Part shown: positions 11,694-59,204 of the stretch, in pieces | Numbering within the stretch: position 1 is the first letter of the stretch | Layout of the letters: every line of letters starts with the position of its first letter | Assembly (NCBI GenBank): GCA_028293125.1 | Contig: JAQGPJ010000041.1 | Span: 124,001 to 188,000, forward strand | Length of the DNA: 64,000 bases | From: Verrucomicrobiales bacterium | GTDB taxonomy: Bacteria; Verrucomicrobiota; Verrucomicrobiia; Verrucomicrobiales; V1-33 | Direction of reading: 5' to 3' | Program-made: the position numbers and the translations under genes | Notes under the pieces: generated by a model | Seen by the model: the letters and a program-made list of their open reading frames with translations, nothing else | What the model was told of the DNA's origin: nothing | The model's database searches: none

Positions 11694-11885
11694 TGTCTCT
11701 GCCTTTGAAAGGCACAGCATGCGGAAAGGCTGAAATCTTTCTCCCAGCCTTTCCTTCCCGGAAATCCGTGCTTATCCGTGCCGCCTCCGTGGCATGGAAC
11801 CGAGTTCCAGCGGCCTTTATGGAACTGCCCTCCGGCCACGCAAAAGTCCCCTTCCCTCTCTTTTCCTCCGCCTCCCTCCCGCTTC

Positions 11886-12986
11886 ATGTTTGTCCACAAT
11901 TCAGCCGACGCCGCCGCCTTCCGCGATTCCCTGCATACCGCCGGCAAGCGCCTTGTTTTCACCAGCGGCTGTTTTGATGTGCTGCACGCCGGCCATGTGC
12001 GTTATCTGGCCCAGGCCCGGGCGCTGGGAGATGCGCTTATCGTGGCGCTGAATTCCGATTCCTCCGTCTCGGCTCTTAAAGGCCCCTCCCGGCCCGTCAA
12101 TTCCGAGGCCGACCGCGCGGAAATCCTGCTGGGCCTGAAATCCGTGGATGCCGTGATTGTGTTCGGCGAACCCCGCACCACGGAGCTGATCCGGCAAATC
12201 CGGCCCCATCTTTTTGCCAAGGGGGGTGACTACACACCTGAAACCCTCGATGCGCAGGAGCGCCATGCCCTGGAGCAGATCGGCGCGGAGATCCACATCC
12301 TCCCCGCCGTTCCCGGACGGTCCACCACCGCCACCTTGGGCCGCCTGGCATATCCGGAATCCCCGGAGGCCACGGCTCCGGCAGCAGCAAAACCCGTCCG
12401 CCGTCCCCGGCTGGGGGTGCTGGGATCCGGGGAAGGCACCAACTTCGGCGTGATTCTCAAAGCCATCGAGGCCGGCACGCTGAACGCGGAGGTCGCGCTG
12501 GTGCTGTCCGACAACTTCCACGCGCCCATCCTCGACCGCGCCAAGGTCAAAGGCATTCCCTCCACTTGGGTGGATCCCGGGGAGCATCCCAACCGGTTTT
12601 CCCTGAAGGCGCAGCAGGAGGCCAGCCGCCGCTTTCAGGAGGCGGACTGCGATCTGATTGTCTGCGCCGGCTTCATGCGGCGGCTGAAAGACCCGGTGCT
12701 CACCGATTTCGCGGGCCGCATTGTCAATGTCCACCCCTCCCTGCTTCCAGCCTTCCCCGGCCGCTCGGCCTGGGTGCAGGCGTTCGAGGCGGGCGTGGAA
12801 GAGGCCGGCTGCACGGTGCATCTCATCGACGCCGGCATCGACACCGGCCCCATTCTGGCCCAGAGCCGCGTCCCGGTGCTGCCCACCGACACCGCCGACA
12901 CCCTGCGCCAGCGCATTCAGGCGGCGGAGTATCAACTCTTCCCCGCAGCCATTCAGGACCTGCTGCTCAGGCTGCCGCCGCGCTGA
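11886..12986 (+). CDS. Fusion of heptose-1-phosphate adenylyltransferase (HldE C-terminal domain) and GAR formyltransferase (PurN)
   Basis: The product has 366 residues in two complete domains. Residues about 22-155 match the cytidylyltransferase-like domain of HldE/RfaE2, with FTSGCFDVLHAGHVRYL, ALNSD, LKGPSRPVN, AKGGDYTPE and GRSTT. This domain transfers AMP to heptose-1-phosphate for lipopolysaccharide core sugars. After a Pro/Ala linker (about 157-173), residues about 175-363 match PurN. These include GSGEGTNFGVIL, CAGFMRRL, NVHPSLLPAFPG (catalytic Asn281 and His283) and DAGIDTGPIL (Asp319). PurN formylates glycinamide ribonucleotide in purine synthesis. The start at ATG 11886 begins just before the HldE-like fold. 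Joining these two pathways in one chain is unusual. A role of the second domain as a sugar formyltransferase was considered, but all PurN residues are intact. Confidence 0.88.
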   Translation: MFVHNSADAAAFRDSLHTAGKRLVFTSGCFDVLHAGHVRYLAQARALGDALIVALNSDSSVSALKGPSRPVNSEADRAEILLGLKSVDAVIVFGEPRTTELIRQIRPHLFAKGGDYTPETLDAQERHALEQIGAEIHILPAVPGRSTTATLGRLAYPESPEATAPAAAKPVRRPRLGVLGSGEGTNFGVILKAIEAGTLNAEVALVLSDNFHAPILDRAKVKGIPSTWVDPGEHPNRFSLKAQQEASRRFQEADCDLIVCAGFMRRLKDPVLTDFAGRIVNVHPSLLPAFPGRSAWVQAFEAGVEEAGCTVHLIDAGIDTGPILAQSRVPVLPTDTADTLRQRIQAAEYQLFPAAIQDLLLRLPPR

Positions 12987-13186
12987 GGGTGTCAGGGCTT
13001 CCGGACAGCCTTGATTTGTCCATGGTTGGGCTTTTAGGGAAGTTTTTCCATGCCTATGGACGGGGGCAATTCAGTGCCGCAGTCCGGATCATTTCACCGG
13101 ATAAGCGTGAGTTGAAAAAATGCCGTGGGATTGCCGGTGCTTCCGTCGTTTCAAAGGCACACTTTCCCCTCTTTCCCCGCAGCAAC

Positions 13187-13771
13187 ATGGACTGGAACAA
13201 CCTCGGCACTTTCTTCACACACGGCGTCAAACATGTCCTCGAGGGCTGGGATCATCTGCTTTTCGCCTCCGCTCTGGTGCTGGCACTGACCGGATTTTGG
13301 GAAATCTTCAAAGTCATCGGGGTATTCACGATTGCCCACTCCCTCACCGCCGCCCTGACGGTGGCCCGCGGAGCGCCTCTCCTGTCGCCGGCCATCGTCG
13401 AGCCCTGTATCGCGGCCAGCATTATTTTCGTGGCTTTGGAAAATATCTTTTATCCGGCCGCGGCCACCAGCCGCCGCCGGCTGATAGTGGCTTTCGGCTT
13501 TGGTCTCGTGCATGGGATGGGGCTGGCGGGGGCGCTGCTGGAGAACCTCGCAGGTCTTGAAGGCCAATTTGTGGCCTGGGCCGTGGTCGCCTTCTGCCTC
13601 GGGGTGGAAATTGGGCATCTCTGCGTGGTGGCGCCGCTTTCCGGGGTGCTGAAGATCGGACGGGACCTGTGGAAAGAGCCCTTCCACAAAGTTGTTCTCA
13701 CCTATGGCTCCGCGCTCATTGCGGTGGGGGGTGTTTATTACCTTCTGGCAGCCCTTGGTGTTCTGGGATAG
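13187..13771 (+). CDS. HupE/UreJ-like membrane protein
   Basis: The product has 194 residues and about six membrane helices. It belongs to the HupE/UreJ type-2 group, shown by the opening FFTHGVKHVLEGWDHLLFASAL and later AHSLTAALT, ALENIFYP and GLVHGMGLAGAL. Family relatives are linked to nickel or other metal entry, but many members in this phylum have no hydrogenase or urease nearby, and none is seen here. Histidines in THGVKH, WDHL, AHSL, VHGM and GHLC could bind metal. It is convergent with the desaturase gene. Confidence 0.82.
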   Translation: MDWNNLGTFFTHGVKHVLEGWDHLLFASALVLALTGFWEIFKVIGVFTIAHSLTAALTVARGAPLLSPAIVEPCIAASIIFVALENIFYPAAATSRRRLIVAFGFGLVHGMGLAGALLENLAGLEGQFVAWAVVAFCLGVEIGHLCVVAPLSGVLKIGRDLWKEPFHKVVLTYGSALIAVGGVYYLLAALGVLG

Positions 13772-13990
13772 CCGCCATGGGCCACCTGCCGCAAGCAGTG
13801 TCGGACATGGGCCGGCGTGCCGGACTGTTCCCCATCGATTTGGTATGGCTCCCTGCCCTCTCCGGCATTTCTCCCGCAACCGGCAGCGGAGTCCCCAACG
13901 TTCGGCGTTCAACGTCCAGCCTTGGGCAGACTCCGCATTGCCCGGCTTTGAACTGTGCGGGCCTTGCAGGCTGTTTCGCGGCGCAGCTGG

Positions 13991-15097
13991 TCAGGAATCC
14001 GCACCCTGAGGACCACGCTTCATGCCCTTGACCGCTTTAAAATTGGTGAGCCGGCGGCGGTTTTCATCCCACAGCCGGAAGCCCAGGGATTTCAGGCTTG
14101 TGCGGATGGTGAGGGGTTTGACACTGTTGAACATGGGCTCGGCATTGTGGGCGCGCTCAAGCTCGTAATTGGGAATGCGGGGGCTGAGATGATGGATGTG
14201 ATGGAAACCGATGTTGCCTGAGAACCATTGAAGGATCCGGGGCAGTTTGTAGAACGAACTGCCCTCAAGGGCGGCTTTGGCGTAATCCCAATCGGGACGG
14301 CGCTCCCAGTAAACATCCTCAAACTGGTGCTGGACATAAAAGAGCCACACCCCGGCGGCGCTGGCGATCGTCAGAATGGTGAGTTGAATCACAAGCCAGG
14401 CGCCAAATCCGAATATGGACACCAAGCCGCAGGCCACCAGCAGGATGCCCAGATTGGTGAAGTGGAGCCCGCGCCTCTCCTTTTTGCCGGCTTTTGGGGT
14501 CGGAATCCTTTCCAAAATCAGAAACAGCACCAAGGGAGCGATGATGAAAAGCACAAGTGGGTTCCGGGCCAGCCGGTAAGCAAAACGGCGCGCGCGGGAG
14601 GACTCCAGATACTCCTGCACGGTCAGCGTCCAGACATCCCCCATTCCCCGGCGGTCCAGATCCCCGGTTGTGGAATGATGAACGGAGTGCTCCCAGCGCC
14701 AGTGATGGTAGGAGGTGAAGACGAGAATGCCGGTGATGAATCCTGTGATTTCGTTGGCGCGCCGGGATTTGAAAAAGGAGCCATGGGTGCAGTCATGGAA
14801 AATAATAAAGATGCGGACATGAAAACCCGCCGCCAGAACCGCTAGGGGAATGACCAGCCACCAGGAGACTCCAATGCTGAAATACATCAGAACCCACAGT
14901 GCCACGTAGGGGACGAGGGTGTTGACCAGCTGCCACGCACTTTTCCAGCGCGAGGGATTCTGGTATTTACGCACAATCCCCTTCCAACCGGCGGTTTGCT
15001 CCTCAAAACGCGGATCTTCAGGTGAAATCGTGGACGGGGAATTCATGGGGTTGATGCTGGAATTTTTAAAAGGAGGTTTGATCCGCATGGTTGCCAC
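13991..15097 (-). CDS. Membrane fatty acid desaturase
   Basis: The product has about 368 residues and the three histidine boxes of the di-iron desaturases: HDCTHGS (His101, His105), HSVHH (137-141) and HHIHH (299-303). Four or more hydrophobic segments lie between them. The enzyme should introduce a double bond into acyl lipids and so adjust membrane fluidity. Box spacing resembles acyl-lipid omega-type desaturases. The GTG at 15097 is preceded by a purine-rich AGGTGGAG at suitable distance and is preferred; ATGs at 15088 and 15046 are alternatives. It is a single-gene unit. Confidence 0.9.
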   Translation of the reverse strand: MATMRIKPPFKNSSINPMNSPSTISPEDPRFEEQTAGWKGIVRKYQNPSRWKSAWQLVNTLVPYVALWVLMYFSIGVSWWLVIPLAVLAAGFHVRIFIIFHDCTHGSFFKSRRANEITGFITGILVFTSYHHWRWEHSVHHSTTGDLDRRGMGDVWTLTVQEYLESSRARRFAYRLARNPLVLFIIAPLVLFLILERIPTPKAGKKERRGLHFTNLGILLVACGLVSIFGFGAWLVIQLTILTIASAAGVWLFYVQHQFEDVYWERRPDWDYAKAALEGSSFYKLPRILQWFSGNIGFHHIHHLSPRIPNYELERAHNAEPMFNSVKPLTIRTSLKSLGFRLWDENRRRLTNFKAVKGMKRGPQGADS

Positions 15098-51772: not shown

Positions 51773-53404
51773 TTATCTTCCAAAGAGGCTTCCCACCCAG
51801 GAAAGCAGTCCCTGCGCGCTCCGCCGCGGCTGCCCGCAGCCAGTGCCTGGCGGTAAAGCCGGGACCGTGCTGCTCAGACCCAGGCTGGAGGCGACTTCCT
51901 CAATGCCTGCAGGCCGGTCCGCAGGATCGGGACTGAGGCACAGCAGAATAGTGCGCGTCCACTCCCTGTCCACCTGCTGGCGGCGCCTGTTTCTTTGAAA
52001 CCGGAGTTTATTGATGTCCGGCAAATATCCCAGCTGCCGTTTGATGGAGACCGGCGACTGGCCTGTGAGCAGATAAAACAGCGTGGCTCCCAGGGCATGC
52101 ACGTCCTGGGCGGGAGCGGGCGGTGCGCCGGCAAACTGCTCCGGGGCGGAATATTCCGGATTTCCGCATGCCCAGGCGTGAAAAACCCGGGTGCCGCCCC
52201 GCGCCTCAGCGAATTGACGGGAAATGCCGAAATCTGCTAGAATGAGCCTGCCGGACTCATCAATCAGGCAGTTCCGGCAGCTCACGTCCTGATGGATGAC
52301 TCCCCGGCTGTGCGCATAGGCGAGCGCTGAGCACAATTGCTCTGTCCAAGCCTTGATCTCCAAAGGATCAAAGAAGGCGTCCCGCTGCATTTGGCGCATG
52401 GTTTCCAAATCCCGGCCCTCGATCCAATCCATCACCAAAGCTCCAACGCCGGCATCCCTCGCAAGATCAAAAACCCGGATGATGCCGGGATGCGCCAACC
52501 GTCTGGCCTGGGCGGCCTCCCGCAGCAGGGACACCTGGGCTCCCCCGTCAAACTCATGTCCGGAGACAAACTTCAAGGCCACATCCTGCTGCAAATGAAT
52601 GTCGTGCGCCCTCCATATCATGCCCGTGCCCCCCTCGCCGGCCTGCTCCAGCAGTTCGTAACGCTGGCAGAATATTCTCCCGGACTCCGGATGGAATCCC
52701 CCGCTCCGTTCCTCGGCGAATTCCCGCAGCCGGTTTCTGGCGGTCCGGAAGCATGATTCGCAGAAATTCGAAGGATAGGACTCCAGATCGTAAAAACCGG
52801 CGTGGCTGACCTCCCCCAGCATGCAGCAGTCGATCCTGGGGCTGAGCGGGTGGTCCGGCAGGTCCAGATTATGGCCGATTTCATGCAGGCAGACAGAGCG
52901 CGCCCGCAGCAGCAGGGTCTGCGGATCAGGTGAGTCGCCGCGCAGCGGATAATAACTCAGGCAGGCCGCCTTCCACCCCACATAGGCGTAACCAAACAGC
53001 CACGGATTTTTGGCATCCGAGACAATGTTGTCGGATGTGATGGCCACGTTGGTGAGCGTGCCGGGAGTATCACGCTCTAGCAGCTGCCGGAGTATCACAT
53101 TGCCCGACCTGCCATGCCATTTTTTCCGCTCGCTGGGGCGGGGATCAAGGCGGGCGGGCTGCACCACCACCGGCACCCCCAGAGCCATCTCAACGGATTT
53201 CGCCAGTTCACTCACCTCACGCAGGGGAATATCGCCCAGCATCCAGAATGACAGGGCACCCTGACTGGAGATTTTCAGCATGATCCCGCATTTACTGCAA
53301 TGGTGCCCCAGACAAGGCTGCCGGCTCCCGCAGTTCGGGCAGAGATTGACCGGATCCGGCTTGGGTGAGGCTTGTGCAGCCGGCGGAGGAAGGGATTTAT
53401 TCAT
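51773..53404 (-). CDS. Zinc ribbon - archaemetzincin-like protease - Ser/Thr protein kinase fusion
   Basis: The product has 543 residues in three parts. Residues 22-39 form a zinc ribbon (CPNC ... CSKC). Residues about 50-235 resemble archaemetzincin. The match includes ILRQLLERDTPGTLTNVAIT, LFGYAYVGWKAACLSYYPLR, the zinc site HEIGHNLDLPDH (His174, Glu175, His178, third ligand Asp184 or His185), then CCM (193-195) and CESC (215-218). This reproduces the HExxHxxxxxH...CxM...CxxC layout, though the family Gly is Asp181. Residues about 247-515 are a Hanks-type kinase with GEGGTGMIW, VALK (Lys278), HQDVSCRN (371-378), DFG (391-393) and SAPE. The usual Lys of HRDxK is Ser375. No signal peptide or membrane helix is seen, so it is cytoplasmic. 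The pairing of protease and kinase suggests one controls the other; that is inference. Confidence 0.85.
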   Translation of the reverse strand: MNKSLPPPAAQASPKPDPVNLCPNCGSRQPCLGHHCSKCGIMLKISSQGALSFWMLGDIPLREVSELAKSVEMALGVPVVVQPARLDPRPSERKKWHGRSGNVILRQLLERDTPGTLTNVAITSDNIVSDAKNPWLFGYAYVGWKAACLSYYPLRGDSPDPQTLLLRARSVCLHEIGHNLDLPDHPLSPRIDCCMLGEVSHAGFYDLESYPSNFCESCFRTARNRLREFAEERSGGFHPESGRIFCQRYELLEQAGEGGTGMIWRAHDIHLQQDVALKFVSGHEFDGGAQVSLLREAAQARRLAHPGIIRVFDLARDAGVGALVMDWIEGRDLETMRQMQRDAFFDPLEIKAWTEQLCSALAYAHSRGVIHQDVSCRNCLIDESGRLILADFGISRQFAEARGGTRVFHAWACGNPEYSAPEQFAGAPPAPAQDVHALGATLFYLLTGQSPVSIKRQLGYLPDINKLRFQRNRRRQQVDREWTRTILLCLSPDPADRPAGIEEVASSLGLSSTVPALPPGTGCGQPRRSAQGLLSWVGSLFGR

Positions 53405-53577: not shown

Positions 53578-53963
53578 ATGCTGCCAACCTTGAGCCGGCA
53601 AGGGGCCCTCTTCGCCCGCAACGCCGTGGTGGCGCGCGCGTGGACGGACCGGGAGAACTTCGCGCTCTTTTGGGACTGCTCCACGGAGGAGGAGGCCATG
53701 GCCTTTTTCAAGGTATGTGAGAGGAAAGTGAACCGCTGCCAAGGCCTCCAGCCCATGAAAAAGGGGTGCCGCCACCCTGCGCCGGCACCTGGGCGGACTG
53801 ATCAACTGTATCACCCAGCCGCTGACCAACGGGCTGGCCGAAGGCATCAACAGCCTCATCGCTGTTCTCAAGGTAGCCGCCGGGAGGCCTGCGCAACTTC
53901 AGCAACTTCAGCATCCGGGTCCTCTTCTTTTTAGGCAAGCCCGATATGCTGCCTGCCGTTTGA
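53578..53963 (+). pseudogene. Decayed ISL3-family transposase
   Basis: Three frames in succession give pieces of an ISL3-type transposase. The first (from 53578) reads FALFWDCSTEEEAMAFFK. The second (from about 53765) reads HLGGLINCITQPLTNGLAEG and INSLIAVLK. The third reads GLRNFSNFSIRVLFFLGKPD and ends LPAV with a stop at 53961-53963. The last two match the conserved C-terminus of the family (HLxGLxNY...TNAxAEGxNSxIQxxKxxARGFRNFxNFRIRILFFxGK). At least two frameshifts and a missing N-terminus show it is dead. Confidence 0.78.
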
Positions 53964-57785: not shown

Positions 57786-59204
57786 TTATTTCAAGCGCGC
57801 CAAGGCCTCCAGCGCAAGCTTTTTGGCGCCGGGCTGCTTGAATTTTCCCTCGGCGGCGGCGGTGAAGTCGGATTTGGCCTCCTCCGTCTGTCCCAGAGCC
57901 AGATGCGCGCGGCCACGGTTGTAAAGAATGTAGGCATCCTCCGGAGCGAGCGCCTGCGCGGCCTGGTAGGCGGTGAGCGCCTCCTCCGCCCGGTCCAGCA
58001 GCAGCAGGCAATCCCCCAGCCGGTTCTGCGCTTTGGCGGTGAGCAACGGCATTTTGACGTGGTCCGGCGGCAGACAGTCATGCAGCCCATCCAGCACCAA
58101 AGCGCAGGTGTCCCTGGCGGTCCCGACCTCCGGCGTGGCCTCTGTGGCTCCCTTCAGCGACTCCTTCACCTGCTCCAGCAGGGCCTCCAAAGGTGCGGCG
58201 GCGAAATCACCCGGTCCCTGACTGGCCGCCATCCGTTGCAGCGCGGCCACACACTGAACCGCCTCCCCGGCGGCAGCCATTTTGGTGATTTCCGGGAGGC
58301 CGGGGGTGGACCGGGAAGGTGCACCCGCCTGGCCGGCGGGCTCCGATGAACGGCTGACGTCAGGCCCCGGCGGATTTTCCAAAGCCAATGGCGGTGCGGG
58401 GGCCGGCGGGGGCAGTCTGCCCGCGAGATAAATGTCATCACCGATGAGACGGGAGTATTCCGCGGGGATCTGGGCACCGTTGGACAGCTTCAGCACCCCG
58501 GCGCGGGTGCGCTTGAAAACCTGCTCGATGGTCAGGCCCGGCGTGCACAGGTTCCGAATCAGCTCACCGGTGTAAAGGCCATTGGTCCCTTCACCGTCGT
58601 TGGCGGTGTGGCCGGCATCGGTGGCGAAGGCAATGAGCGAGCCGGCAGGGGGCTTCATCTCTGTCAGCCCCGCGGTGCCGGAGGCATCGCGGCGGCGCGG
58701 ATTGCGGGCTACGGGGGTGCTGCGGCAGGCGTCGAGGATCACTAGGCTGCAGCGCGCGCCGGAGGCGCTCATCTCCGCCACCGCCTGTTCGGCGTTGAAG
58801 AGCCGGGTCTCCGCCAGCAGCCGCATGGACGCCTCCTCCACCCCGGCGGGGTCATAACCGCTTTTGACCGGCATCAGATAGTTGGAGCCGCCCACCTGGA
58901 TGCCGTGCCCCGCGAAGTAAAACAGGGCCACCTCCGCCGCCTTGGCTTTGCCCCGGAACTCCATCACCGCCGCCATCAGCTTGTCCCGCGTGACATTGTG
59001 GACCTCGGTCACGGCAAATCCCAGGCGGCGCAGGGCTTTGGCCACCGCCGAGGCATCGTTGCCCGCATTGCGGAGAGGCCCGACGGCGGTTTCATATTTG
59101 GCATTGCCGATCACCAGTGCAGCGCGCTGCCCCTGGGCCCGCGCCGCGGTCCACGGGATCAGCGTCAGGCAGAGAAAAAGAACAATGCCGGGAAGGATAT
59201 GCAT
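57786..59204 (-). CDS. Exported caspase-family (peptidase C14) protein with TPR
   Basis: The product has 472 residues. A signal peptide (LPGIVLFLCLTLIPWTAARA) precedes a caspase-like domain (about 26-260). It contains ALVIGNAKYETAVGPLRNAGND, the catalytic His100 in FYFAGHGIQ and Cys160 in LVILDACRS. A Pro-rich linker leads to about two or three TPR-type helical repeats at the C-terminus (NRLGDCLLLLDRAEEALTAYQ, LYNRGRAHLALGQTEEAKSD). Orthocaspases of this build are usually Arg/Lys-specific, and the exported form may act on periplasmic proteins. It is divergent from the NlpC-like lipoprotein gene. Confidence 0.9.
   Translation of the reverse strand: MHILPGIVLFLCLTLIPWTAARAQGQRAALVIGNAKYETAVGPLRNAGNDASAVAKALRRLGFAVTEVHNVTRDKLMAAVMEFRGKAKAAEVALFYFAGHGIQVGGSNYLMPVKSGYDPAGVEEASMRLLAETRLFNAEQAVAEMSASGARCSLVILDACRSTPVARNPRRRDASGTAGLTEMKPPAGSLIAFATDAGHTANDGEGTNGLYTGELIRNLCTPGLTIEQVFKRTRAGVLKLSNGAQIPAEYSRLIGDDIYLAGRLPPPAPAPPLALENPPGPDVSRSSEPAGQAGAPSRSTPGLPEITKMAAAGEAVQCVAALQRMAASQGPGDFAAAPLEALLEQVKESLKGATEATPEVGTARDTCALVLDGLHDCLPPDHVKMPLLTAKAQNRLGDCLLLLDRAEEALTAYQAAQALAPEDAYILYNRGRAHLALGQTEEAKSDFTAAAEGKFKQPGAKKLALEALARLK

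Follow-up and report, generated by a model that had tools for sequence, protein, structure and literature searches.

A zinc ribbon and archaemetzincin-like domain joined to a Hanks-type kinase in two species of one verrucomicrobial genus

The 64,000-nucleotide stretch of Verrucomicrobiales DNA analysed here (the window) encodes a protein of 543 amino acids in which an N-terminal zinc ribbon and an archaemetzincin-like domain are followed, in a single chain, by a Hanks-type Ser/Thr kinase domain (51773..53404, minus strand, as for all its parts given below). The same arrangement recurs in a second species of the genus. These are known families in a new combination, and no paper describing an archaemetzincin–kinase fusion was found in the open-access literature.

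Results

Gene and domain layout

The layout of the gene follows from its open reading frame, from family matches and from a full-length homologue. The frame runs from an ATG start to a stop codon at 51773-51775, and GC content by codon position is 0.63/0.47/0.73 and 0.66/0.46/0.70 in its two halves, a shared pattern that indicates one coding gene. The motifs named in the initial annotation were all found at the residues given there, i.e. HEIGH at 174-178, CCM at 193-195, FCESC at 214-218, VALKF with K278, HQDVSCRN, DFG at 391-393 and APE at 420-422. A linker of 16 residues (231-246; 52667..52714), set by the domain limits and of low identity between the two species, separates the two enzyme domains.

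The protein had also been described as soluble, and no transmembrane helix was indeed found in it (the highest 19-residue Kyte–Doolittle mean is 1.16). Simple solubility is nevertheless not certain, since both fused proteins have a short amphipathic end. In the window protein this C-terminal segment comprises residues 530-543 (AQGLLSWVGSLFGR; 51776..51817), of which 530-540 form a low-confidence helix in the full-length model, and its hydrophobic moment lies at the 97th percentile of the protein in the window as well as in the second species (LLSWVGSLFGR and AFWQKVRRWAG, respectively). Such a tail could possibly make peripheral contact with the membrane.

The fusion in a second species

A protein of 549 amino acids from another species of the same genus (G004; contig CAMDJM010000081.1) shares 45% identity with the window protein in an alignment (E 5e-135) that begins at the zinc ribbon and extends through the whole kinase. 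Such a full-length homologue excludes a chance fusion, and thus the two parts, which the initial annotation had placed in one protein, do recur together. Judged by this comparison, the fusion is real, not a chance or assembly join, old enough for wide divergence, and maintained. By region, identity is highest in the metzincin domain (50%), followed by the ribbon and the kinase (43% each), the linker (31%) and the tail (27%), although with two fused sequences, the second from a metagenome-assembled genome, conservation statistics are thin. That the metzincin domain is better conserved than the kinase (50% versus 43%), with all its metal-binding and catalytic residues kept, argues that the ribbon–metzincin module is under constraint.

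Searches of three further genomes of the genus, which are 68-89% complete and so do not make absence certain, gave no copy of the fusion, and neither did eight other genomes of the family; a pattern-based scan of GTDB contigs with the window protein alone returned nothing. G009 gave a match at E 0.001 that contains two stops; this weak hit was rejected as a homologue because no frame continues the alignment. A plasmid match (H1) that seemed to reach residue 130 was judged a spurious extension, as it begins upstream of the annotated kinase gene; apart from this, the plasmid collection yielded generic kinases only, and no relative was found among viral contigs and phages.

Archaemetzincin identity

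The archaemetzincin-like domain spans residues 49-230 (52715..53260). Taken alone, the window protein matches NCBIfam NF033823 at E 1e-11 to 9e-11 with 42 bits, i.e. under the cut-off of 145, and the PDB entry 2x7m at E 0.005, and it does not reach Pfam M54 (PF07998) in a single-sequence search; the G004 protein scores 23.9 bits there against a cut-off of 24.4. With relatives aligned, NF033823 matches all six alignment rows (best E 8e-23), PF07998 five of the six members (best E 9e-14) and NF033824, the CarG family model, likewise five of six, and a six-row profile retrieves archaemetzincins first from the PDB (4axq at E 2e-15, then 3zvs, 2x7m and 3lmc).

AlphaFold2, run on residues 1-240 with the six-row alignment, gave a model with a pLDDT of 80.5 and a pTM of 0.80, whereas the full-length model was poor (pLDDT 59, pTM 0.43). 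The five best matches of the shorter model in a Foldseek search of the PDB are all archaemetzincins (E 5e-10 to 1e-7). VIA-align gives a Z of up to 17.4 for such structures (2.2 Å over 157 residues), whereas adamalysins and ADAMs score no higher than about 12. The predicted metzincin fold is thus common to the window protein and the archaemetzincins of peptidase family M54, which include AfAmzA (3zvs/4axq), MkAmzA (2x7m) and MlAmzA (3lmc; VIA Z 17.4/17.4/16.4) as well as human AMZ1/AMZ2. Overall, the archaemetzincin assignment, moderate from the single sequence, is strong with relatives and predicted fold taken together, and the fold expected in the initial annotation is borne out by the model, whose best PDB matches are of just this type.

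Stand-alone zinc-ribbon archaemetzincins

A query consisting of ribbon and metzincin domain was run against genomes of the order, the class, the phylum and a sister order (1,857 genome scans, with overlapping draws) and against GTDB contigs, where a three-row alignment found five loci. Kinase-free proteins of about 215-280 amino acids with a zinc ribbon and an archaemetzincin domain occur in a handful of genomes (L028/G810, L029/G790, L030/G827 with two copies, G801 with two copies, G900 and G636). The combination thus forms a sparse, patchy subfamily of Verrucomicrobiota-group genomes, normally without a kinase. Its stand-alone members, from Chthoniobacterales/Spartobacteria and other Verrucomicrobiota-group metagenome-assembled genomes (L028, L029, L030, L034, L066, L067, L071), resemble the window protein in layout at about 30-40% identity; they differ from it in having no kinase and, in most cases, in carrying the motif HExGHxLGLxHH with His as third ligand.

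In the window protein the ribbon takes up residues 18-45 (C22xxC25 ... C36xxC39; 53270..53353). All four Cys are kept in G004, and four of six relatives give Pfam DZR-type matches to it. By these comparisons the ribbon is not special to the kinase fusion, but is a trait of the whole stand-alone subfamily. Another partner occurs in G168/L031, where ribbon and archaemetzincin are joined N-terminally to a different, zincin-like HELGH domain for which there is no Pfam model.

A maximum-likelihood tree sets the ribbon group, including the fused pair, apart from the phylum's archaemetzincins of signal-peptide type (100/100) and unites the two fused proteins in one branch (100/100); the branching order inside the group is not firm in it. 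The simplest reading of these sequence relationships is that the ribbon–metzincin module existed first and was then placed before a kinase once in the lineage of the genus. We found no description of this subfamily, as defined here by its zinc ribbon, His for the first structural Cys and repeated third-ligand Asp.

Several loci of the stand-alone proteins show features of their own. L031 (947-3508, G168) encodes two tandem proteins with zincin-like (HELGH / YELGH), ribbon and archaemetzincin parts, the first without the metzincin zinc motif. One stand-alone branch (G801b, L074 7443-8093; G900, L075) reads HELGHxFGLDDM and has neither His nor Cys at the first structural zinc position. In L072, an ARPP-1 gene (PF20208), a DUF2130 gene and an archaemetzincin gene follow each other on one strand with overlapping open frames (11818-14791), and in L029 (1-6639) an ARPP-1 gene (PF20208) lies about 5 kb upstream of the stand-alone zinc-ribbon archaemetzincin. 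In G827 (L072 3-12564), some 7 kb separate the two copies; a long helicase-type gene with PADLOC MkoA/MkoC matches lies in this interval, and a large NTPase-like gene is found outside it.

Metal-binding and catalytic residues

In the archaemetzincin signature HEXXHXXGXXHCX4CXMX17CXXC, three His bind the catalytic zinc and four Cys a second zinc (PMC3427221). The window protein reads HEIGHNLDLPDH-X7-CCM-X19-CESC, with spacings of X7 and X19 against the canonical X4 and X17. Its zinc-site motif is H174-E-I-G-H178-N-L-D181-L-P-D184-H185 (52850..52885; canonical HExxHxxGxxHC), followed by the Met-turn and the remaining structural zinc ligands, C193-C-M195 ... C215-E-S-C218 (52751..52828). In common with the M54 archaemetzincins, it has HExxH, the Met-turn and a second zinc site at C-terminal Cys residues, and it differs from them in having Asp as third ligand, Asp for Gly (in the window only) and His for the first Cys of Cys4, besides the added N-terminal ribbon, the C-terminal kinase and the NF033823 score below the cut-off. 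Accordingly, the initial statement that the zinc site was complete holds for the HExxH Glu, the Met-turn, CCM and CESC, but not for three signature positions, which are changed (Asp184, Asp181 and His185).

The distribution of these changes was followed position by position in 11 zinc-ribbon and 13 other archaemetzincins. The Asp at the third-ligand position (Asp184) is also found in G004 (HEIGHTLGLHDH) and in the stand-alone proteins G801b and G900 (GLDDM), which belong to another branch, whereas most members have His; the change from His to Asp therefore probably arose more than once. At the first Cys of the Cys4 site, His185 is shared by the fused pair and most of the zinc-ribbon group, and C193, C215 and C218 of this site are retained. 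Asp181, in the place of the conserved metzincin Gly, is peculiar to the window protein, and G004 retains the Gly. All zinc-ribbon relatives in the comparison share the catalytic E175 and the Met-turn M195 with the window protein. The two fused proteins are identical at nine of nine residues (H174, E175, H178, D184, H185, C193, M195, C215 and C218), for which chance at 50% background identity would give about 0.2%, a rough figure that counts Asp184 and His185 in their present form and excludes the differing Gly position.

The metzincin consensus, with H/D as third ligand, admits an Asp there (PMC3427221), and such an Asp defines the Asp-zincins, HEXXHXXGXXD (PMC3890501). The conserved Gly is not absolutely required either, since a homologue of family M43 with a solved structure has Asn in its place (PMC3890501). 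From its residues, therefore, the window protein could possibly be a working protease. It resembles Asp-zincins or minizincins (e.g. PF06262) in its third zinc ligand and in having no signal peptide; these, however, lack a Met-turn (PMC3890501), whereas the window protein keeps Met195 and the structural zinc site.

The kinase half

The kinase domain (residues 247-510; 51875..52666) matches Pfam Pkinase with an E of 1.4e-38 over residues 249-502, and its best solved relatives are StkP and PknB. G256/G258, K278, E296, D373, N378, D391 and APE are in place. The initial annotation had been right that Lys278, Asp373, Asn378 and DFG are kept and that Ser replaces the Lys of HRDxK: the catalytic loop reads H371-Q-D373-V-S375-C-R-N378 (52271..52294). 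This Lys is present in G004 (HLDIKPQN) and in every other kinase loop that was matched in the window's genome. Its absence is compatible with activity in many tyrosine kinases, so Ser375 is no proof of inactivity. Like bacterial Hanks-type kinases in general (PknB/StkP type; PD-T4-6 and MAD6 defence kinases), the window protein has a complete domain with K278, E296, D373, N378 and DFG, but it departs from them in its Ser at the HRDxK Lys, in its N-terminal metalloprotease-like module and in the absence of PASTA repeats and a membrane helix. After G004 (221 bits), the kinase is most similar to large verrucomicrobial kinases of ordinary type, at about 162 bits. The 6.5 Mb genome to which the window belongs (G000) encodes twenty Hanks-type kinase domains at E<=1e-15, many of them in open frames of 800-1400 amino acids.

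Genomic surroundings

Two genes adjoin the window gene, one for an aminotransferase in convergent orientation (by reading, similar to histidinol-phosphate aminotransferase) and, upstream, one for an L,D-transpeptidase; CotH, caspase-type and zinc-ribbon proteins are encoded further away. Among these, a caspase-domain protein (Peptidase_C14) with TPR repeats is encoded about 4 kb upstream of the fusion gene (57786-59204). At 53578-53715, a protein-like stretch on the plus strand (LFARNAVVARAWTDRENFALFWDCSTEEEAMAFFKVCERKVNR) runs into a less protein-like frame, possibly a small or frameshifted gene. The surroundings of the G004 copy include a recombinase-like gene and small toxin–antitoxin-like open frames (both by reading) and an HKD+Snf2 helicase, which is a candidate defence gene. 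No conserved operon was seen; neighbours differ among the window, G004 and the stand-alone copies, and a promoter and terminator scan gave nothing notable. With no shared neighbour, the context provides no evidence on function, and none on defence.

Discussion

What, then, might a metzincin module do in front of a kinase? Tentatively, and without regarding it as probable outright, we favour the reading that this is a cytoplasmic Hanks-type kinase in which the N-terminal zinc ribbon and archaemetzincin module acts as a recognition or input domain. The module would stem from the pre-existing family of stand-alone zinc-ribbon archaemetzincins and would have come to precede a verrucomicrobial kinase of the typical kind in an ancestor of the lineage. 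Its archaemetzincin fold would be expected to carry two zinc ions, and the zinc-loaded cleft could bind a peptide or a terminal stretch belonging to a partner protein, which might then be cleaved, with Glu175 at work beside an Asp-type zinc site made up of His174, His178 and Asp184. Via the 16-residue linker, the module would present this partner to a presumably active kinase, or else switch the kinase.

The recognition-domain reading derives from the retention of the metal-binding residues, from the fusion itself and from the precedent of CarG of Myxococcus xanthus (NF033824), a non-proteolytic archaemetzincin fold with two zincs that serves as a protein-binding regulatory subunit with CarD as its partner (PMC8156234). 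CarG and the window protein share a bacterial archaemetzincin fold and a changed active-site motif in which an acidic residue, Glu in CarG, takes the place of the Gly (PMC8156234). Unlike the window protein, CarG keeps the third His and the four Cys and has neither ribbon nor kinase; at the catalytic position, it has Gln for Glu (PMC8156234), whereas E175 is kept here. A module that only binds would not need Glu175, and its retention speaks against a mere input domain, as do the differing neighbours in the two species and Ser375, which makes activity of the window kinase uncertain.

The main rival, less likely but inseparable by sequence from the recognition-domain reading, is a true two-enzyme protein, in which an active Asp-type protease and an active kinase regulate each other, for example by autophosphorylation of the linker opening the protease cleft or by self-cleavage of the linker releasing the kinase. 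Both species retain Glu175, His174, His178 and Met195 along with the residues of the structural zinc site, the third-ligand Asp has its parallels in Asp-zincins (PMC3890501), in the metzincin consensus (PMC3427221) and in the relatives G801b and G900, the Asn of the M43 homologue shows some freedom at the Gly position (PMC3890501), and G004 has both this Gly and a canonical HLDIKPQN loop. The window protein itself, however, has Asp for the Gly and Ser for the catalytic Lys of the kinase, and no activity is known for any zinc-ribbon archaemetzincin.

These same two substitutions could also mean that, in the window species, both catalytic centres are drifting (Asp181 and Ser375) and the protein has become a scaffold or pseudo-enzyme, with the sister species canonical. 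Two independent changes at near-essential positions, confined to the window copy, would fit this, as would CarG, an archaemetzincin proven to be inactive in which an acid stands in place of the Gly (HQx2Hx2Ex2HC; PMC8156234). The open frame of 543 codons, the uniform coding signal and the presence of all metal ligands, HExxH, DFG, K278, E296, D373 and N378 make it improbable.

Still less is to be said for the suggestion, made in the initial annotation, of a defence-like module. PADLOC models for PD-T4-6 match the kinase (E 1e-48), the G004 contig carries a recombinase-like gene and the HKD+Snf2 candidate defence gene, and the ribbon–metzincin module is sparse and patchy, which would suit an anti-phage kinase of the PD-T4-6 kind with a sensor or protease module. 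The PADLOC match is confined to residues 243-508, i.e. to the kinase domain, as many Hanks kinases would give, and no similarity to PD-T4-6 or a defence kinase was seen beyond the generic kinase domain. The window copy, moreover, stands between aminotransferase and L,D-transpeptidase genes, which are not defence genes, neighbours are not conserved, and phage and viral collections hold no relative, so that a role in defence appears very unlikely. An assembly or gene-calling artefact that merged two genes, conceivable given a total of two known fused sequences, of which the second comes from a metagenome-assembled genome, is effectively refuted by the second species, whose protein shares the junction at 45% identity, and by the single open frame of uniform codon-position composition.

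The architecture is thus clean and testable, but represented by two sequences and devoid of functional context. To our knowledge, archaemetzincins have no firmly known physiological substrates. Here the kinase fusion may serve as a ‘Rosetta stone’, in that the phosphorylation targets of the kinase could lead to what the metzincin binds or cleaves, and the zinc-ribbon archaemetzincin subfamily provides a small set of proteins with which to ask whether an Asp ligand supports archaemetzincin catalysis. Should the less likely case apply that the Asp-type archaemetzincin protease and the Ser/Thr kinase are both active in the cytoplasm and control each other, which we consider rather doubtful, such a one-chain switch between proteolysis and phosphorylation would be an intracellular role of a bacterial archaemetzincin quite unlike that of CarG.
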